DNA of 64,000 nt. Origin: Oscillibacter sp. GTDB lineage: Bacteria; Bacillota; Clostridia; Oscillospirales; Oscillospiraceae. A model generated the notes under the pieces. It was not told the DNA's origin, ran no database searches, and was given only the letters and a program-made list of their open reading frames with translations. The stretch's first letter is position 1. Each line of letters opens with the position of its first letter. Of this stretch, positions 9,777 to 25,724 are shown piece after piece. A program made the translations under genes and the position numbers. The stretch is from positions 1-64,000 of the forward strand of contig JAAVZX010000019.1 in NCBI GenBank assembly GCA_022791875.1, given 5' to 3'.

Positions 9777-9983
9777 AAGTACCCTGCGGGGTTCGTGATA
9801 GATCTTTTTTTAACCCACATTTCGTTATACGGGACGCCAGATCAATACGTGGTTCGCAGGCCTCCCGGCTGCCGTTCGCGGCTGGAAGTTGGAAGCGGTA
9901 AAGCGTGTCGGAGGCGACCCACCTGTGCTTAGGAAGGTGCAGGTTATAACGAGGTCTACACGGCTCACGCGGGGTGCTTTTTT
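9777..9983 (+). ncRNA. ssrS: 6S RNA (ssrS-like)
   Basis: The 5' segment AAGTACCCTGCG (9777-9788) pairs along all 12 positions, allowing G-U, with CGCGGGGTGCTT (9968-9979). That 3' arm runs straight into a T tract, forming a closing stem and terminator. CCCTGCGGGGTTCG at the 5' end resembles the conserved 5' shoulder of Firmicutes 6S RNAs, and about 200 nt is the usual length. 6S RNA binds the housekeeping RNA polymerase holoenzyme through a large central bubble. Assignment rests on size, closing stem and 5' motif; a covariance search would settle it. Confidence 0.72.
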
Positions 9984-17316: not shown

Positions 17317-18996
17317 TTACAGCCCTGCGCGGTAGTGCTCCGCGTTGTCCAGCAGTTCCCCCGCGCTCTCCAGAAGCGCCTCCGTCACCTTAGCCCCCCC
17401 GGTAATCCGCGCCAGCTCCGCCTTTCTCCGCTCTCGATCCAGAAGTACCACCTGCGTATAAGTCCGCCCCTTCCGCTCCCCCTTCTCCACGGAGAAATGG
17501 GTATCCGCCATAGCCGCCAGCTGCGGCAGATGGGTCACGCAAAGGACCTGCTTCCTCCGGCTCACCTGGGCCAGCTTTTCCGCAACCTTCTGCGCCGCCC
17601 GCCCGGACACGCCCGTGTCCACCTCGTCGAACACCAGCGTTCCGATGGACTCCTGCTCCGCCAGCACGTTTTTCAGCGCCAGCATAATCCGGGCCAGCTC
17701 GCCGCCGGAGGCGATTTTCGCGATGGGCTTCAAGTCCTCCCCGGCGTTGGCGGACATGAGGAAGCGCACCACGTCGCAGCCGTCCGCCGCTGCCTCCTTT
17801 TCCTCGAAGGCGATGGAGAAGCGCACCCGGTTCATGTCCAGGTCCCGCAGTTCCTGCTGGATGCGGGCCTCCAGGTCCAGTGCCGCCTGCTTCCGGGCCG
17901 CGGTCAGGGCCGCGCCGGCTGTCCGCACCTCCGCCTCCGCCTTTTTCAGCTTCTTCTCCAGGAAAATCAGCGTGTCCTCCGCCGTCTCGATGGCGTCCAG
18001 CTCCTTCCGGCACTGGTCCAGGTAGTCCAGCATATCCTCCACCGTGGCTCCGTACTTCCTTTTCAGCCGGTAGAGCTGGTCGGCGCGGCTCTCCGCCGCG
18101 TCCAATTCCTCCGGGGAGAAGTCGAAGGAGCTCCGCAGGTCCCGCACCGTTTCCGCCAGGTCGTAGGCTTCGCTCTGCAGGGATTCCAGGCGTTCGTACA
18201 CGTCGGAGATGCCCTCCAGGTCCTGGACCCCCGCCAGAGCGCCCGCCGCGCTTTGCAGGGCGCTGACGGCCCCCGCGCTGTCGTCGTCCCCGCTGAGGCA
18301 GTAGTCCGCCTCCGCCAGGGACGAGAGGTATTTTTCGCCGTTGCGCAGGAGGTTCCGGCGGGCGTTCAGCTCTTCTTCCTCGCCGGGTTCCAGCTCCGCC
18401 CGCTCCAGCTCGCCGATCTGGAACCGCAGGCTGTCCACCCGCCGCGCCTTCTCCGCCTCGTCCATTTGCAGGGCGTTCATTTCAGCCCGCAGTTTCGCCA
18501 TTTGCTGGTAGATTTTCTGGTAAGCCCCCAGGGGTTCCTCCGTCCGCCCAAAGCGGTCCAGGTAGGCCCCGTGCTGTTCCTCGTCCAGGAGCTGGGCCCC
18601 GTCATGCTGCCCATGGATATTGAGCAGTTCCGCCCCAATCTGCCGCAGCTGAGCCACTGTCAAGGGCCTCCCATTGACACGGCACACGTTCTTCCCCTCC
18701 GCGGAAATCTCCCGCTGAAGCAGCAGATTCCCGTCCTCATCCGGCGCAAACCCGCTCTCCGCCAGCCCCGGAAGCTCCGCCGGAACATTGGAAAACTCCG
18801 CGCTGACGAACGCCTTCGACGCCCCCGTCCGGATCAAATCCCGGGACGTCCGCCCACCCAGCACAGCCCCCATCGCGTCAATCACGATAGACTTACCCGC
18901 GCCCGTCTCGCCTGTCAGCGCGTTGAACCCAGGGTGAAACTGGATATCCGCTTCTTCTATCACTGCAATGTTCTCAATATGCAGCAGCTCCAGCAT
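17317..18996 (-). CDS. recN: DNA repair protein RecN
   Basis: SMC-like ATPase that organises ends during double-strand break repair. The 559-residue product has Walker A GETGAGKSIVIDAMGAVLGG (residues about 29-48). A long coiled-coil middle follows, then the ABC signature KIASGGELARIMLALK and Walker B TLVFDEVDTGVSGRAAQ. The ATG at 18996 gives the standard MLELLHIENIAVI start and is preceded by AGAGG; a longer reading to 19035 adds repeat-derived sequence. It closes the oapA-dxs-tlyA-nadK-argR group, although two extra genes separate it from argR here. Confidence 0.95.
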   Translation of the reverse strand: MLELLHIENIAVIEEADIQFHPGFNALTGETGAGKSIVIDAMGAVLGGRTSRDLIRTGASKAFVSAEFSNVPAELPGLAESGFAPDEDGNLLLQREISAEGKNVCRVNGRPLTVAQLRQIGAELLNIHGQHDGAQLLDEEQHGAYLDRFGRTEEPLGAYQKIYQQMAKLRAEMNALQMDEAEKARRVDSLRFQIGELERAELEPGEEEELNARRNLLRNGEKYLSSLAEADYCLSGDDDSAGAVSALQSAAGALAGVQDLEGISDVYERLESLQSEAYDLAETVRDLRSSFDFSPEELDAAESRADQLYRLKRKYGATVEDMLDYLDQCRKELDAIETAEDTLIFLEKKLKKAEAEVRTAGAALTAARKQAALDLEARIQQELRDLDMNRVRFSIAFEEKEAAADGCDVVRFLMSANAGEDLKPIAKIASGGELARIMLALKNVLAEQESIGTLVFDEVDTGVSGRAAQKVAEKLAQVSRRKQVLCVTHLPQLAAMADTHFSVEKGERKGRTYTQVVLLDRERRKAELARITGGAKVTEALLESAGELLDNAEHYRAGL

Positions 18997-19035
18997 CTTA
19001 TCACACTGCCTCTCTAATTTGATAGTGCCTGCCAT

Positions 19036-19171: not shown

Positions 19172-19564
19172 TCATTCTTTCCTTTGGTGCTTATCAATGG
19201 CGATAGCGTACCGGATGATGAGAATGCCCATAAGTAAAATGCCTGCCAGATACAGGCGGCGCAGCCATTCGTAACCTTTTGGAACGCAGAAGCACAGAAC
19301 AGCCAGAATTATAAAGCCCGCCATAGGACCCCATTCCACAAAGGGCGCAAACGCGCCGTACAACTCCCGCCGGATGGCCTTTTTCCTCTCCGACAGTTCA
19401 ACACAGCGCGGGGAAAAGGCTTTGTAAAAACACACGCCGCCGACGAAAATCCCGGAGGCCGCGCTGAGCGCGTTGGAACCCTGGCGGACAAACAGATGCC
19501 ATGCCGTCATGCCCAGCATCAAAACGCCGCAGATCAGGAATTCCCTGTCATAAGCACGCTTCAT
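19172..19564 (-). CDS. Small membrane protein, paralogue of the upstream gene
   Basis: A 130-residue protein with four predicted helices. It aligns end to end with its upstream neighbour: MKRAYDREFLICG against VKRSYSMEYLVCG, YKAFSPRCVE against YRAFSPRYVE, IRRELYGAFAPFVEWGP against IRRELFGRFAPFVVWGP, and LYLAGILLMGILIIRYA against LYLAGILLMGVLVIWYS. The two are a clear tandem duplication. The ATG at 19564 lies one base after the neighbour's stop. No family recognised. The pair is inserted between argR and recN, which are normally adjacent. Confidence 0.75.
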   Translation of the reverse strand: MKRAYDREFLICGVLMLGMTAWHLFVRQGSNALSAASGIFVGGVCFYKAFSPRCVELSERKKAIRRELYGAFAPFVEWGPMAGFIILAVLCFCVPKGYEWLRRLYLAGILLMGILIIRYAIAIDKHQRKE

Positions 19565-19565
19565 T

Positions 19566-19964
19566 TTACTTCTTCTTCCGGCGCTTTTCAATCACGGACG
19601 AGTACCAGATGACCAGGACGCCCATAAGCAAAATCCCTGCGAGGTACAGCCAGAACAGCCACTTATACCCCTCCGGAATGCGCAGGCTCAGAACCATCAG
19701 CACAACAGCCACCACGGGAGGCCCCCATACCACGAAGGGCGCAAATCTGCCAAACAGCTCCCGCCGGATGGTCCGTTCCTCTTCCTCTCTTTCCACATAG
19801 CGGGGCGAAAAGGCCCGGTAAATATTCGTGCCGCCTATGACGCCCCACATGGCCGCAAGGAACCAGTTAGGACTGTTAACCATTGGGAAAACCAGATAAG
19901 AAACCGCCAGAACCAGAATCAGAATGCCGCAGACAAGGTACTCCATGCTGTAAGAACGTTTCAC
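19566..19964 (-). CDS. Small membrane protein, first of a tandem pair
   Basis: A 132-residue protein with four predicted helices and a conserved cytoplasmic loop rich in Arg and Glu (YVEREEEERTIRRELFGRFAPF). I chose the GTG at 19964 because it aligns with the start of the paralogue and has AAGGGG just upstream; the in-frame extension to 19985 has no support. It follows argR by 40 bases with no visible terminator, so it is probably co-transcribed with the argR group. Function unknown. Confidence 0.72.
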   Translation of the reverse strand: MKRSYSMEYLVCGILILVLAVSYLVFPMVNSPNWFLAAMWGVIGGTNIYRAFSPRYVEREEEERTIRRELFGRFAPFVVWGPPVVAVVLMVLSLRIPEGYKWLFWLYLAGILLMGVLVIWYSSVIEKRRKKK

Positions 19965-20004
19965 TTTACACCCCTTTCCTTTCAATGAAAGCCCCGGTTT
20001 CCTC

Positions 20005-20454
20005 CTACAAAATCTCCTTGATTTCCTCGCAGAACTCCGCGGCGGACTCCGTGTCCTTCATCACCAGAAAGGCCGTGTCGTCCCCCGCCAGGGAGCCCAC
20101 GATATCCGTCTCCTCCATGTTGTCCAGAGCGGAGCAGGCCCCGTTGGCAAGCCCCGGCATGGTCTTGATCACCACGATGTTCTGGGCGTAGGCCACGCTG
20201 ATGATGCTCTCCCGGAAGATGGTTTGCAGCTTCTCCGCGATATTGAGCTGGGACCGGTTTCCGGAGACAACGTACTTGTACTTCCCCCGCCCCAGAGGTT
20301 CCTTGATCAGGTGCAGCTCCTTGATGTCCCGGGAGATGGTGGCCTGGGTGCTGACGATGCCCCGCTGCTGGAGGCAGCTCAGAAGCTGCTCCTGGGTCTC
20401 CACGTTCTCCTGGGCAATGATATCCAAAATCATGGTCTGACGGTCGTTTTTCAT
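20005..20454 (-). CDS. argR: Arginine repressor ArgR/AhrC
   Basis: Arginine-sensing regulator. The 149-residue product has an N-terminal winged helix (LLSCLQQRGIVSTQATISRD, about 20-42; then IKELHLIKEPLGRGKYKYV). The C-terminal hexamerisation and arginine-binding domain has IVVIKTMPGLANGACSALD and GSLAGDDTAFLV, where the paired Asp residues bind arginine. The ATG at 20454 overlaps the nadK stop (ATGA) and follows GGAGGCTTGG. In Clostridia the gene commonly sits in the nadK-argR-recN group, as here. Confidence 0.95.
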   Translation of the reverse strand: MKNDRQTMILDIIAQENVETQEQLLSCLQQRGIVSTQATISRDIKELHLIKEPLGRGKYKYVVSGNRSQLNIAEKLQTIFRESIISVAYAQNIVVIKTMPGLANGACSALDNMEETDIVGSLAGDDTAFLVMKDTESAAEFCEEIKEIL

Positions 20455-21329
20455 CCTTCCAAGCCTCCAGGCAGCATTTTCTGGGCAAAGATTTCGCAAA
20501 AGCTCCGCTCCGACAGGCGCACCAGCCGGGTCACGTACTTCGATCGCCGCACCTGGATCTGGTCGTCCGCTTTCAGTGCGAAGGCGCGGCTCTCGTCCAC
20601 GAAGAGGTACACCGGCTTCCGCCCGTTCCGCTCCAGCTCCACCGTCAGCACGTGTTCCGGGGAGAGGACGTAGGAGGAAAAGCGCATGTTGTGGATGCAG
20701 ATGGGGCAGACCACCATGGCCTGGGCCACCGGCTCCACCACGGGGCCTCCCGCCGAGAGGGAGTAGGCCGTGGAGCCCGTGGGCGTGGCCACGATCACGC
20801 CGTCTCCGGCGATGTCCGCCAGGTGCCGCCCGTCGGAGGACAGTTTCAAGTGGATCACGTGGGAGATAGGGCCCTCCCGGATCACCGCGTCATTCAGGCC
20901 CAGATTCGTGTAGATCTGCCGCCCGTCCCGGAGGACGGACACGTCCAGCATCATCCGCTGTTCCGTCTCGAAGTTCCAGTCTTTCAGCTTCCGCAGGGTT
21001 TCCAGCTCCCCCGCCTCCAGCTCCGCCACGAAGCCCAGGCCCCCCATGTTGATCCCCAGCACGGGCATCTTGTGCAGCGCCGCCAGCTTCGCCAGGTGCA
21101 GGATGGTGCCGTCGCCGCCGAAGGTGATCAGCAGGTCCGCCCCCCGCAGCTCCTGGGGCAGGGGCTTCACGTCGTAGTCGGCGAACGCGCCCTCCTTCCG
21201 GTCCCGGAAGGGGGAGCAGACCACCGTCTGGAACCCGATGCCGTGGAGAATTTTCTCCGCCGTCCGGGTGGCCTTCATGCCCTGGTCCCGGTTGGGGTTC
21301 GGGCAGAGGATGATTTTCTTGGGATTCAT
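20451..21329 (-). CDS. nadK: NAD kinase
   Basis: Phosphorylates NAD to NADP with ATP or polyphosphate. The 292-residue product has the hallmark GGDGTILHLAKLAAL (residues about 70-84), GINMGGLGFVAELE, the NEP-like loop as LNDAVIREGPISHVI, and DGVIVATPTGSTAYSLSAGGP. The ATG at 21329 overlaps the tlyA stop by four bases. The order dxs-tlyA-nadK-argR is fully coupled by overlaps, so expression should be coordinated. Confidence 0.96.
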   Translation of the reverse strand: MNPKKIILCPNPNRDQGMKATRTAEKILHGIGFQTVVCSPFRDRKEGAFADYDVKPLPQELRGADLLITFGGDGTILHLAKLAALHKMPVLGINMGGLGFVAELEAGELETLRKLKDWNFETEQRMMLDVSVLRDGRQIYTNLGLNDAVIREGPISHVIHLKLSSDGRHLADIAGDGVIVATPTGSTAYSLSAGGPVVEPVAQAMVVCPICIHNMRFSSYVLSPEHVLTVELERNGRKPVYLFVDESRAFALKADDQIQVRRSKYVTRLVRLSERSFCEIFAQKMLPGGLEG

Positions 21330-22147
21330 GCGCTTCCCACCTCTTCCTTTAACGTCCGGTGGGATTCCTCCACCAGCGCTTTTAAGTCAAATGTGCAGGG
21401 GGCTTCCTCATGGTCCCCCAGAAAGCCCAGGTATTCGATGTTTCCCTCGGGGCCCCGGATAGGGGAATAGGTCAGCCCCAGGACGGAGAAATCCGCCGCG
21501 GCGGCGTGGTCCAGAAAGTGCTCCAGGACTTCCTGGTGGACGGCGGGGTCCCGGACCACGCCCTTCTTCCCCACCTTCTCCCGTCCCGCCTCAAACTGGG
21601 GCTTCACCAGGCAGACCACGTGTCCGCCCTCCCGCAGAAGCGTCCGCAGGGGGGGCAGAATCAGCTTGAGGGAGATGAAGCTCACGTCCACGGAGGCGAA
21701 ATCCAGGGGTTCGGGAATCTGCTCTCTGGACAGGTAGCGGGCGTTGGTTTTCTCCAGACACACCACCCGTTCGTCAATCCGCAGCTTCCAGGCCAGCTGG
21801 CCCCGGCCCACGTCCACGGCGTAGACCTTTGCCGCACCGTTCTGGAGCATACAGTCTGTGAAGCCCCCCATGGACGCGCCGATATCGGCGCACACGCTGC
21901 CCGCCAGCGCAATGGGGAAGGTGCTCATGGCCTTCTCCAGCTTCAAGCCCCCGCGGCTCACGTAGCGCAGGCCCCCGCGGACCTCGAGCTCCGCCTCCGC
22001 CGGGACGGCGGTGCCGGGCTTGTCCACCCGCCTGCCCGCCACGTACACCTGGCCGCTCATGATCACCGCCTGGGCCCGCTGCCGCGTCTCCTCCAGGCCC
22101 CGCTCCACCAGAAGCAGGTCCAAACGCATCTTTTTAATCGCTCCCAT
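21326..22147 (-). CDS. tlyA: TlyA-type rRNA 2'-O-methyltransferase / hemolysin family protein
   Basis: A 273-residue protein with an N-terminal S4 RNA-binding domain (MRLDLLLVERGLEETRQRAQ, then VYVAGRRVDKPGT) and a C-terminal FtsJ-like methyltransferase fold. The fold has the SAM site VCADIGASMGGFTDCML and DFASVDVSFISLKLILPPL. In mycobacteria TlyA methylates 16S and 23S rRNA; the Clostridial orthologue (YqxC) is presumed similar. I chose the ATG at 22147 because GGGAGG lies six bases upstream; the ATG at 22129 is also possible. It overlaps the end of dxs by 14 bases. Confidence 0.92.
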   Translation of the reverse strand: MGAIKKMRLDLLLVERGLEETRQRAQAVIMSGQVYVAGRRVDKPGTAVPAEAELEVRGGLRYVSRGGLKLEKAMSTFPIALAGSVCADIGASMGGFTDCMLQNGAAKVYAVDVGRGQLAWKLRIDERVVCLEKTNARYLSREQIPEPLDFASVDVSFISLKLILPPLRTLLREGGHVVCLVKPQFEAGREKVGKKGVVRDPAVHQEVLEHFLDHAAAADFSVLGLTYSPIRGPEGNIEYLGFLGDHEEAPCTFDLKALVEESHRTLKEEVGSA

Positions 22148-23993
22148 GTGCCGCCTCCCGCACCGCCGCGGCCACCCCGGCGGCGTCCAATCCAAATGCG
22201 TGCTCCAGCTGGGGGACGCTGCCCTCCGGCGGGAACCTGTCGCCTAAGTTTTTCAGGATCAAATGCGCCGGGGCCTCCCCCCGCTCCGCCAGCAGGGCCG
22301 CGATTCTCTGCCCCACACAGCCGGCGCTGTACGCATCCTCCAGTATCAGTAATGTACCCGTATTTTTGAAAAAGCCATCCAACGTTTCCGTGTCCAGGGG
22401 GGCAATGCGGTTCAGCTTTAAAACCTCCGCCTCAATGCCCTCCTTGGCCAGCAGTGCCGCCGCCTCCAGGGCGGAGTTGATCAGGACGCCGTAGCTCAGC
22501 AAAGTCACGTCCTTCCCAGCCCGCAGGCGGATCAAGGGTGCGCCGGAGGCGTCCTCCCGGAAGAAGCCCTCGCCGCCCCGCGGGTAGCGCACCGCCACGG
22601 GGCCGGGAATGTCGAACAGGGCCTGACGCAGCATGTGCCGCAGTTCCGCAAAGCTGGAGGGGCACAGGACCGTGAAGCCCGGAATGGACGGCAGGAACAG
22701 GGCGTCGAAGCAGCCCTGGTGCGTCTCTCCGTCGGGGCCAACCAGACCCGCCCGGTCCACGCCCAGGACCACGTGCAGCTTTTCCAGGGCCGCGTCGTGG
22801 ATCAGCATATCGTAGGCCCGCTGCAAAAACGTGGAGTAGACTGCGAAAACGGGGATCATCCCCTGGGCCGCAAGGCCCGCCGACATGGCGACGCCGTGGC
22901 CCTCCGCGATGCCCACGTCGAAAAAGCGCTCGGGAAACGCCTTCGCGAACTCCGTCAGGCCCGTGCCGTCCGCCATGGCGGCGGTGACGGCGCAGACCCG
23001 TCCGTCCTCTTCGGCGCAGTTGAGAAGCGTCCTGCCGAAGACGGCGGAAAAGTTCTCCCCGCCCTCCTTTTTCAGCAGGCCCGTTGCCGGGTCGAAGGGG
23101 CTGATGCCGTGAAACTTGTCCGGGTTCTGCTCTGCGAAGGAGTACCCCTTCCCCTTCACCGTGTTCACGTGGACCAGCACTGGACAGCGCAGGTCCCGCG
23201 CCCACTCCAGCACGTCGCACAGGCGGGGCAGGTCGTGGCCGTCGATGGGGCCCAGGTAGGTGAAGCCCATGTCCTCAAACAGGGTGCTCCCCGGCCAGAG
23301 GGTCCGTTTCAGCCAGGTCTTCATGCCGTGGTTGAAGCGGTACAGCGGGTTCCCCATGGGCCTGCGCCCGAAGAGGCTCCTGTACCACTTCTTAAAATGG
23401 TAGTAGGCGGGCTTGGAGCGGAGCTTCGCAAGGTGGGTGGGAATGGCCCCCACGTTGCGGTTGATGGACATTCCGTTATCGTTTAAGATCACAATCAGGG
23501 GTTCGCCGGAGGCTCCGGCGTTGTTCAGGCCCTCGTAGGCCAGCCCCCCCGTCAGCGCCCCGTCCCCCAGGAGGGCCAGGACGCTGTAGTCCCCCTTTTG
23601 CAGCGTCCGGGCGCGGGCCATGCCCAGGGCCACGGACACGGAGTTGGAGGCGTGTCCGGCGATAAAGGCGTCGTGGACACTCTCCTTGGGCTTGGGGAAG
23701 CCCGAGAGGCCCTGGAACTGCCGGAGCGTCGCGAAGAGCTCCCGCCGCCCCGTGAGGGCCTTGTGGACGTAGCACTGGTGCCCTACGTCGAAGACCAGGC
23801 GGTCCCGCTCCGTGTCGAAGACCCGGTGGAGGGCCACGGTCAGCTCCACGGCCCCCAGGTTGGAGGCCAGGTGCCCCCCCGTCCCGGAGACGCTCTGCAC
23901 AAGAAACTCCCTCAGCTCCTGGCAGAGCTGGGGGAGCTGTCCGGCGGGCAGTGCCCGAAGGTCCGCCGGGGAATGGATCAACTCCAGCAGCAT
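22134..23993 (-). CDS. dxs: 1-deoxy-D-xylulose-5-phosphate synthase
   Basis: Thiamine-diphosphate enzyme that condenses pyruvate and glyceraldehyde-3-phosphate, the first step of the MEP isoprenoid pathway. The 619-residue product shows GTGGHLASNLGAVELTVALH, the ThDP motif GDGALTGGLAYEGLNNAG, the transketolase pyrimidine domain (DVGIAEGHGVAMSAGLAAQG), and HDLPRLCDVLEWA. The ATG at 23993 fits the family start (MLLELIHSPADLRALP); AGGAG lies 14 bases upstream, which is long. A TTG at 24017 is an alternative. It lies between oapA and tlyA as in other OLE-type operons. Confidence 0.96.
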   Translation of the reverse strand: MLLELIHSPADLRALPAGQLPQLCQELREFLVQSVSGTGGHLASNLGAVELTVALHRVFDTERDRLVFDVGHQCYVHKALTGRRELFATLRQFQGLSGFPKPKESVHDAFIAGHASNSVSVALGMARARTLQKGDYSVLALLGDGALTGGLAYEGLNNAGASGEPLIVILNDNGMSINRNVGAIPTHLAKLRSKPAYYHFKKWYRSLFGRRPMGNPLYRFNHGMKTWLKRTLWPGSTLFEDMGFTYLGPIDGHDLPRLCDVLEWARDLRCPVLVHVNTVKGKGYSFAEQNPDKFHGISPFDPATGLLKKEGGENFSAVFGRTLLNCAEEDGRVCAVTAAMADGTGLTEFAKAFPERFFDVGIAEGHGVAMSAGLAAQGMIPVFAVYSTFLQRAYDMLIHDAALEKLHVVLGVDRAGLVGPDGETHQGCFDALFLPSIPGFTVLCPSSFAELRHMLRQALFDIPGPVAVRYPRGGEGFFREDASGAPLIRLRAGKDVTLLSYGVLINSALEAAALLAKEGIEAEVLKLNRIAPLDTETLDGFFKNTGTLLILEDAYSAGCVGQRIAALLAERGEAPAHLILKNLGDRFPPEGSVPQLEHAFGLDAAGVAAAVREAAHGSD

Positions 23994-24021
23994 GACTCGT
24001 TCAAACGCTCCTCTCAACGGC

Positions 24022-24582
24022 TCAGATATGGAAGATATGGAGAATCCGCCCGGCCAGGTAGACCACCTTCGTGCTCCGGGAGATGGCGACGGTCTTCCCC
24101 AGGGCCTTCCCGCCGATGGTGAGGCCGGACACGAGGGCCGTCACGCCCACGGAGATCAGCACCGAGCGGAGGTTCAGGGCCCTCTGGAGCTGGGTGACGA
24201 TAACCGCCCCCGTGGCGCCGCTGACGATGCCGCAGATGTCGCCCACCACGTCGTTGCAGACGCTGGAGACGCGCCCAGCGTTCCGCAGGAGCATGAGGGC
24301 CTCCTTGGCCCCCTTCTCCTTGTGGGCGGCCATGGCGTGGAAGGGCTTGGGGTCCGCCGCGGTGACGGAGACGCCGATGATGTCGAAAACAATGCCCAGG
24401 CCGATAAAAGCGGCCAACAGCAAAAGAGCGGTCGCCACGCCCGCGCCGTCCAGCATCGCCTCGGACGCCAGACTCAATACGCCGGACAGGGCCACCGCCA
24501 TGAGAAAGACCGTTAAGGCCCAGCGATATTGGGCGGACGCTTTGCCTTTATCCTTTCCCTTGGAATTGTGTGCCTTTTTCAA
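24022..24582 (-). CDS. oapA: OLE-associated membrane protein OapA (DUF21-like)
   Basis: A 186-residue protein with four predicted helices (about 22-42, 48-70, 108-128 and 138-158). A cytoplasmic stretch, EKGAKEALMLLRNAGRVSSVCNDVVGD, resembles the DUF21/CNNM membrane domain. The start is a TTG at 24582 with GGGGAGG seven bases upstream; the longer in-frame reading runs into repeat sequence. The gene follows the OLE-like RNA and precedes dxs, the position OapA holds in known OLE operons. OapA is the integral membrane partner of OLE RNA. Identity here rests on topology, the DUF21-like segment and this gene order. Confidence 0.83.
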   Translation of the reverse strand: MKKAHNSKGKDKGKASAQYRWALTVFLMAVALSGVLSLASEAMLDGAGVATALLLLAAFIGLGIVFDIIGVSVTAADPKPFHAMAAHKEKGAKEALMLLRNAGRVSSVCNDVVGDICGIVSGATGAVIVTQLQRALNLRSVLISVGVTALVSGLTIGGKALGKTVAISRSTKVVYLAGRILHIFHI

Positions 24583-24689
24583 GAAAAAACCTCCCCTGGC
24601 CTGTTGGGCCAGATGAATGTGAATGTACAGTGCATAAACGGAGCGTGCCGGAAGCCGCGGACGGGTTTTTCCGGGCGCGGCAGACATGG

Positions 24690-25010
24690 GCGCGGTTCCG
24701 CGGGTGCGGCGGACGCGAAGGACGGGCGGACACAGAGGTCCGCCCCTACAGGGTGTGTCAGGTGGATATGTGCATGTTGAGGGGTGCATCCCCATTGGTC
24801 TGGCATTCGCGAAGGACGGGCCGCCGAGGGCGGCGGCCCCTACGGTGTGCATCCCATGAAGCCTGGCAGTGGACGTGTACGCACCTCAACGCCCCTGGCA
24901 GTTACAGAAAGAAAGTGATCTGGCGGGGTCCAGGGGAAACCGTTTCCCCTGGCAGGAGTCCAGAGGGCAGCGCCCTCTGGCGGGGTCTGGGGCAGAGCCC
25001 CAGCGCAGGC
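24690..25010 (+). repeat. Mosaic repeat between OLE RNA and oapA
   Basis: On plus it contains GGACGGGCGGACACAGAGG hairpin modules, the CGCCGAGGGCGGCGGCCCC module, GACGTGTACGCACCTCAACG, and then a double-hairpin element in GATCTGG-first orientation (24917-25000). Modules and order match the right part of the mosaics at 10005 and 35475. Here it sits inside the OLE-oapA transcript, antisense to it. The spacer 24583-24690 shows nothing else. Confidence 0.75.
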
Positions 25011-25039
25011 ACTACAGACAGAAGTATGTTGGTGCTAAG

Positions 25040-25690
25040 CGGCGGCGGCAGAAAAAGTAAATCTTACGGCTTAGGTACGGGTTGGATTTCCCCGCAGAGC
25101 GCCTCTCGTTGCCGATGGAGGCGGTTTCCCGTTCGGCCCTGCGGCACGGCGTCGCCTGTCCGCGCTACCCGACTGCCACTTAGTCCGCACTGCAATCCTT
25201 TTTCTGCCCCGCTGAAAGACAGCCTAGGTGATTTCCACCACAGTCCGTCCGTTTCTTTAGCCTCTTTTGCAGAACGGGTTTCAGGGGGCGATCACGGCAC
25301 AGCCCTGGCCGGGGCCTTACCGCGTAGTTCCCTCATCCACCCGCCCCACGCAAGGCAGGCTACAGCTGCACACAGCGTTACCGCCCGAAGACGGATGCAC
25401 CGCATTGCAGGTTCATCATCTGTTTCGTACACAGGCCGGAAATACCACGTCGGGAGTACGTCCATGCACAAGAACAGGTCTCCACGGAAACAGGGTCGGA
25501 TTGACCATGCCATTGGAAAGCGCCCTGAGTCCGCAAGCATACCAAAGGGTACGCTTCCCCCCAGCACCCACCCAAAACTGGGCGTAATAAGCAGGCACCA
25601 GAGGTTTCATCGGTGTGCCCTTCAGAGGATTTTTAGGCCCTCCTTAGGAAACGGCAGATCTGACTAGAATACTGCGCCGCCGCCTAGCAT
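25040..25690 (-). ncRNA. OLE RNA (ornate, large, extremophilic)
   Basis: About 650 bases without a credible gene, bounded by a strong minus-strand promoter at 25696-25724 and by oapA downstream. On the minus strand it is full of short complementary segments and GNRA-like turns, for example GGCGGGTGGATGAGGGAAC near 25330-25312 and ACGCGGTAAGGCCCCGG just after it. The length, the position between a promoter and oapA, and the following dxs-tlyA-nadK-argR-recN order match the known OLE RNA context in Bacillus halodurans and anaerobic Clostridia. Short open frames inside it have no ribosome-binding sites and no family resemblance. Ends are approximate. RNase P and tmRNA were considered and their core motifs are absent. 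Confidence 0.83.
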
Positions 25691-25695
25691 TCCAT

Positions 25696-25724
25696 AGTAT
25701 ACCACGCCATTCATAATTATGCAA
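25696..25724 (-). promoter_or_regulatory. Promoter of the OLE RNA operon
   Basis: Minus strand: TTGCAT (25719-25724), 17 bases, TATACT (25696-25701). It begins 33 bases after the rluB stop, so the RNA can be made independently of rluB. The predicted start is near 25689. Confidence 0.86.

Follow-up and report, generated by a model that had tools for sequence, protein, structure and literature searches.

The OLE RNA locus

The window, by which is meant the whole stretch of 64,000 nucleotides that was analysed (contig JAAVZX010000019.1 of an Oscillibacter sp. assembly, positions 1 to 64,000), carries an OLE RNA gene on its minus strand, with oapA and further genes downstream. The features of the locus are given below in window coordinates, following the minus strand.

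25696..25724, minus strand: sigma-A-type promoter TTGCAT-17-TATACT with TG before the -10 (sequence; conserved in relatives)
25710..25723, minus strand: ARG-box-like element TGCATAATTATGAA over the -35, a candidate ArgR site (argG-derived matrix)
25026..25696, minus strand: OLE RNA gene, span of the Rfam RF01071 model (cmscan)
25535..25556, minus strand: extra hairpin in mid-J5/6, AAGCGUACC-CUUU-GGUAUGCUU (21-base insert relative to the Rfam consensus)
25307..25310, minus strand: palindrome GGCC of L9.3, kissing loop of the published OLE dimer (alignment; PMC12286853)
24583..25025, minus strand: ole-oapA spacer of about 443 bases, largely pieces of dispersed repeats (BLAST)
24022..24582, minus strand: oapA, encoding a CNNM-like, OLE-associated membrane protein (start codon probably TTG; Pfam CNNM below cut-off)
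22134..24017, minus strand: dxs, longest open frame (TIGR00204, 675.2 bits)
21326..22195, minus strand: tlyA, longest open frame (TIGR00478, 280.6 bits)
20451..21329, minus strand: nadK, NAD kinase (NCBIfam NAD kinase models, best 209.5 bits, below equivalog cut-offs)
20005..20499, minus strand: argR (TIGR01529, 137.4 bits, above the cut-off of 130.45)
17317..19035, minus strand: recN (TIGR00634, 537.6 bits)

The whole window was searched with cmscan. RF01071 was matched at 392.5 bits (gathering score 50; E 8.4e-112), over positions 1-616 of the 616 of the model and without truncation; the span is 671 bases on the Rfam model. Three matches in the window exceeded the curated Rfam scores, namely OLE, a T-box leader (2274-2059, minus strand, 113.7 bits) and a 6S RNA (9778-9979, plus strand, 69.5 bits). 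The source genome (assembly of 2.95 Mb in 88 contigs, 84.6% complete) yielded a single OLE match. Phage records gave no match.

An OLE RNA between an rluB-type gene and oapA had been proposed in a preliminary description made from the sequence, and the full-length match bears this out. The check named there, a search of the minus strand with the Rfam OLE covariance model, placed the RNA at 25696-25026, so refutation by lack of an OLE hit failed, and a search of the interval for a good match to another RNA family did not refute it. The interval first described, 25040-25724, runs from the start of the -35 to 14 bases short of the end of the Rfam model. The minus-strand promoter TTGCAT-17-TATACT lies at 25724-25696 as claimed, and oapA, dxs, tlyA, nadK, argR and recN follow in this order on the 3' side of OLE. 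That the gap holds no credible protein is right in general, but a 365-codon open frame does exist on the plus strand, antisense to OLE (24570-25667); it is probably an artefact of G+C content.

Conserved structure

OLE RNAs were aligned in 171 real rows (the empty row L077 was left out), forming 135 clusters at 98% identity; the own-genus and the named (OapA-relative) row sets overlap in 24 clusters. Pairing was assessed on 32 OLE RNAs of the same family, using the 158 pairs of the Rfam structure and the nine of one extra helix. Across these, 88.9% of cells were paired, and 102 of the 167 pairs had changed on both sides. The covariation score was 0.362, and none of 500 shuffles scored as high, a comparison that is inflated by relatedness; sliding the partners by 1-3 columns, a control that retains relatedness, reduced pairing to 38.7-50.3%. 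Four of the 23 helices paired poorly in this set (helix 7, 45.2%; helix 12, 59.8%; helix 16, 65.2%; helix 17, 22.2%).

A kissing contact of L9.3 in the OLE RNA dimer is described in PMC12286853. The palindrome GGCC was found in the L9.3 arm of 169/171 aligned OLE RNAs, and the two that lack it carry other palindromes in the predicted loop (CCGG in L098, CGTACG in L269). On these two cases, the L9.3 palindromes agree with the published contact.

Extra hairpin in J5/6 and the kink-turns

The 21-base insert sits at the exact middle of four unpaired bases between the helices taken as P5 and P6. It forms nine pairs with a fold of -14.2 kcal/mol (z -2.58). Eight of the nine pairs have changed on both sides in the same-family set, with 90.4% of cells paired and the helix present in 24 of the 32 rows. 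A long J5/6 with the hairpin was found in all 37 own-genus rows and all 73 real OapA-relative rows, and in 16/32 rows from other genera of the family. It was absent from the 29 rows of other families, where the J5/6 segment is always 14 bases; these rows come from the 30 top-scoring class loci, of which L202 was not aligned. Counted by clusters at 98% identity, the hairpin occurs in 77/77 of own genus and OapA relatives, 16/32 of other genera and 0/26 of other families. Among 40 lower-scoring class matches, drawn from the 151 genomes with a match, 36 had a short J5/6 (21 called by a first pattern, 15 with another pattern or on visual inspection), four were unreadable and the hairpin was seen in none. 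As sampled, the J5/6 helix thus appears to be confined to part of the family. It looks new, and published consensus figures or alignments may already draw it. The J5/6 segment is expanded to 121-194 bases in five rows (L267, L268, L091, L276 and L269), and such expansion explains why some OLE matches of the family reach about 745-833 bases.

The insert falls in a region for which two kink-turns have been described at the OapC site. K-turn 1a is formed by J4a/5 with J5/6 and part of P6 (PMC9723947), and k-turn 1b, seen by cryo-EM, by J4a/5 with J6/7 (PMC12286853). The two are reported as mutually exclusive, yet both can form, and in-line probing of the Halalkalibacterium halodurans RNA indicated that k-turn 1a is favoured on binding of bS21 (PMC12054373); both states may therefore exist in other hosts. 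The J5/6 strand of k-turn 1a, GGRGTTAAGG, is present in all 29 other-family rows and in none of the 110 own-genus and OapA-relative rows. The J6/7 strand of k-turn 1b, GYGGAGRC, is kept in 110/110 rows of the clade and in 171/171 overall, the window included; in a set of 15 more distant OLE RNAs, searched with a second pattern, it was missing from the stretch searched in two. Since the J5/6 strand is gone, the J6/7 strand is kept and OapC is still encoded, OapC in this clade most likely meets k-turn 1b and not k-turn 1a. An alternative is a kink-turn embedded within a three-way junction.

Protein partners

An OapC homologue is encoded in the source genome.

L112, 1761-1513, minus strand: OapC/YbxF homologue, adjoining rpsL (solved YbxF 3v7e, E 3.3e-11)

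The usual place of OapB is before infA. The source assembly (84.6% complete) gave no match to infA and thus lacks this place, and its sole KOW match is NusG-like by eye; the bin probably lacks part of a ribosomal-protein operon. A KOW-type (OapB-type) protein was found directly before infA in 11/11 same-genus genomes that have infA, and for the one compared with solved structures, OLE-associated protein B was matched (7k9b, 3.3e-7). Four genomes of other genera gave one OapB-type protein, two unparsed cases and one in which it was not seen among the frames searched (long frames left out). One of the eleven same-genus genomes with the OapB-type gene (G207, 95% complete) gave no OLE match. OapB is thus not specific to OLE hosts, in agreement with the literature.

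Promoter and candidate ArgR site

The -35 (TTGCAT) occupies 25724-25719 and the -10 (TATACT) 25701-25696, with a spacer of 17 bases. As TATACT ends at 25696, transcription probably starts near 25689, about 7 bases past the -10, and the first bases of the Rfam OLE span are probably promoter. A scan with consensus promoters did not list TTGCAT-17-TATACT and listed TTAACA-17-AATTAT instead. OLE promoters were placed in 103 of 105 regions (window included, two skipped), with a spacer of 17 bases in 97 and of 16 in six; the placing script slightly favours 17, and two or more of the placements appear to be wrong. In 75/103 of these promoters, 22-24 bases separate the end of the -10 from a conserved block of the GTATYCTAGTC type.

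An ARG-box-like element, TGCATAATTATGAA, overlies the -35. A matrix was derived from the upstream regions of argG in relatives and in the source genome, of which 17/24 contain a box TGNATWWWWATNC[AG]; that of the source genome is TGTATAAATATTCA. In 16 of the 17 the box lies at the TTG of the -35, with a -10 at 16-18 bases; the seventeenth (L160) lies elsewhere and is counted in the matrix. argC was considered as a source of boxes and rejected, being behind another gene in most loci. The element scores 15.8 bits on this matrix, whose own boxes range from 15.0 to 21.2, and shares the register of those 16 argG boxes. It differs from the ARG box palindrome TGNATWWWWATNCA by one mismatch, and most relatives keep the left half only. 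With the -35 fixed and local composition used, the chance of such a box is 0.00037, rising to a few per cent once it is corrected for being the best of 95.

The best matrix match lies in the argG register in 40/95 ole promoters. In the own genus, 34 of 37 ole promoters were read, and 23 reached at least 8 bits in register; a score of at least 15 was reached in the window alone. At least 10 bits were reached by 26/95 ole promoters against 2.4% of shuffles, which also destroy the -35. The box was found in 23/65 OLE promoters against 1/86 control promoters of the same loci, and that one is itself an ole promoter; this control set is small, consists in part of one orthologous promoter and is lower in A+T. 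Outside the family, 30 OLE loci were scored, and 10 bits were not reached in the 150 bases upstream of any of them. A broader upstream operator, ATACNGWATATNTTGYATA, was rejected, as it gave 13 matches in the source genome with up to three mismatches against 10 for the reversed control. The ole promoter is its only perfect match in that genome, and the three sites with two mismatches, read in context, lie in or near genes with no apparent link to arginine.

These data bear on a possible addition to the main explanation, in which ArgR would repress the OLE operon through the box over the -35. Feedback would follow from the position of argR inside the operon together with the report that ArgR binds OLE RNA in H. 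halodurans; PMC10898510 states this interaction and notes that argR is often near ole. The score of the box and its argG register, its recurrence in own-genus promoters, its excess over the controls, the downstream position of argR in 52/57 loci and the reported interaction all speak for such a loop. Against it stand the degenerate right half (most relatives lack its CA, and the window alone enters the argG score range), the correction for the best of 95, the nature of the controls, the lack of the box in the out-of-family loci and the failure of the wider element to recur in the genome. With the right half degenerate in most relatives, the element is suggestive only as an ArgR site, and we regard the repression loop as tentative and on balance doubtful. 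If the element binds ArgR, OLE would be tied to amino-acid supply. We know of no specific transcriptional control of OLE described before, and ArgR binding would be the first.

The ole-oapA spacer and gene order

The upstream neighbour of OLE is a pseudouridine synthase of the RluB/RsuA type. Among the loci of named relatives, 57 exceed 12.4 kb. RluB was found in just six of these, so it is not a general upstream neighbour, and 52 have oapA, dxs, tlyA, nadK and argR in the same order as here. OapA itself matched Pfam CNNM at 22.4 bits (E 1.1e-4), under the cut-off of 28.4, and no NCBIfam family was assigned. The gap between argR and recN (19172-19985, minus strand) contains two similar 139-codon frames that are membrane-protein-like by eye.

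From 515 confirmed OapA relatives the best 80 were kept; each of their loci has OLE on the oapA strand and upstream of that gene, and six of the OLE matches are partial at a contig start. The gap between OLE and the matched OapA segment is below 100 bases in 61/80 of these loci and above 443 in three. By BLAST, the spacer matched a further 10 pieces of the window and six within five other pieces of the genome; these short, dispersed, G+C-rich repeats also occur in the argG locus. Longer spacers were seen in L095 (about 2.4 kb), L083 (0.74 kb) and L071 (864-6001), where a gap of about 5.1 kb holds two large open frames that are lipoprotein-like by eye. A terminator-like hairpin at 24613-24580 on the minus strand of the window overlaps the ribosome-binding region of oapA and could tune read-through from ole into oapA.

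No run of at least six T was found within 45 bases past the model end in the window, and such runs occur near the OLE end in 31/105 relatives; read-through into oapA is therefore likely. This, with the constant position of OLE 5' of oapA in the 80 loci, would fit a segment that acts chiefly in cis as a leader of oapA or its operon and not as a separate RNA. The size and structure, however, fit a family shown elsewhere in the literature to be an RNP component, and in L071 the RNA is separated from oapA by the two large frames, so that we consider a leader role very unlikely. A separate OLE RNA, transcribed from its own promoter, is the preferred reading.

Distribution

OLE was found in 54/61 same-genus genomes, in 30/31 of those with completeness of 90% or more and contamination of 5% or less, in 56/200 same-family genomes searched and in 151/391 same-class genomes searched, the source genome being counted in the genus, family and class. 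Broken or variant OLE RNAs were considered in G184, G620, G602 and G624; the matches sit at contig ends and were taken as assembly cuts. In the GTDB survey of Fernando and Breaker (2024; PMC11332333), 2,822 OLE hits in Bacillota are given, and the uncultured gut clades TANB77 and RF39 are included. OLE is nearly universal in the genus and common in the class, and this host adds no range; the expectation that a high-GC gut member of the Clostridia would extend it is refuted by these counts and by the survey. No literature on OLE RNA together with Oscillibacter was found.

The closest relatives of OapA in named genomes belong to Oscillibacter, Dysosmobacter and other Oscillospiraceae, mostly MAGs, and the titles of many carry gut or host names. 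Judged from these relatives, the host would be Oscillibacter-like. The bacterium is probably a gut dweller. Non-MAG strains among them are Oscillibacter valericigenes An411, An860 and An890, and Oscillibacter sp. 1-3, PC13 and ER4.

Two same-genus OLE RNAs are truncated by contig ends and score 157.5 and 227.9; all others score 323-412, so the 392.5 bits of the window are a property of the clade. That the locus is a degenerate, inactive remnant in a gut bacterium losing OLE, as a score below the best class member (560.2) and the repeats in the ole-oapA spacer might suggest, is scarcely credible given the full-length match with covarying helices, the conserved promoter, the intact oapA frame and the presence of OLE in most same-genus genomes.

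Proposed role and significance

OLE RNA is a large noncoding RNA whose biochemical function has yet to be solved in the model species as well. A role as a membrane stress-response RNP can be proposed here by analogy with H. halodurans. A full-length OLE RNA would be made from its own sigma-A promoter, and transcription would probably read on into oapA-dxs-tlyA-nadK-argR. By analogy with H. halodurans and Clostridium acetobutylicum, the RNA would dimerise through its 5' domain, with the GGCC kissing loop of L9.3 among other contacts; OapA would hold it at the membrane, OapB and OapC would fold it, and the RNP would help the cell to cope with stresses, among them an excess of Mg2+ and growth on poor carbon sources. 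With the J5/6 hairpin of this clade, OapC would meet the kink-turn of J4a/5 and J6/7 (k-turn 1b). We hold this overall explanation, an OLE locus with its own promoter, an RNP role and use of k-turn 1b by OapC, with high confidence. A stronger claim is that the Oscillospiraceae OLE RNP has been remodelled so that the J5/6 helix does away with one of the two competing kink-turn states and locks the k-turn 1b form with OapC, and that an ArgR-arginine loop acts at the ole -35; we think it improbable as a whole.

OLE loci are known in their thousands, and OLE is the rule in this lineage; less ordinary are the clade-specific J5/6 variant and the promoter hint of ArgR. The clade is in effect a natural mutant of a contested switch region, with the J5/6 strand replaced and the J6/7 strand kept, and binding of OapC and bS21 to hairpin-bearing and hairpin-free OLE RNA would bear on which k-turn matters.

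Comparison with known systems

The OLE systems of H. halodurans and C. acetobutylicum resemble the present one in the full-length model match, the adjoining oapA, an OapC in the genome, OapB (here in the genus), the GGCC of L9.3 and the J6/7 strand of k-turn 1b. The window RNA differs from them in its span (671 bases against about 600 nt), in the covarying hairpin that splits J5/6 and in the long, repeat-filled spacer before oapA. According to a published proposal, the MpfA family (CNNM-CBS-CorC magnesium exporters) takes the place of the OLE RNP in species that lack this RNP; a CNNM-type domain is said to be common to MpfA and OapA, and MpfA is all protein. OLE variants 1 (TANB77) and 2 (RF39), as described in PMC11332333, are likewise gut-associated, clade-specific departures from the full-length form; they shorten or lose P7-P9, whereas the OLE RNA of the window has its full length and an added helix in J5/6.
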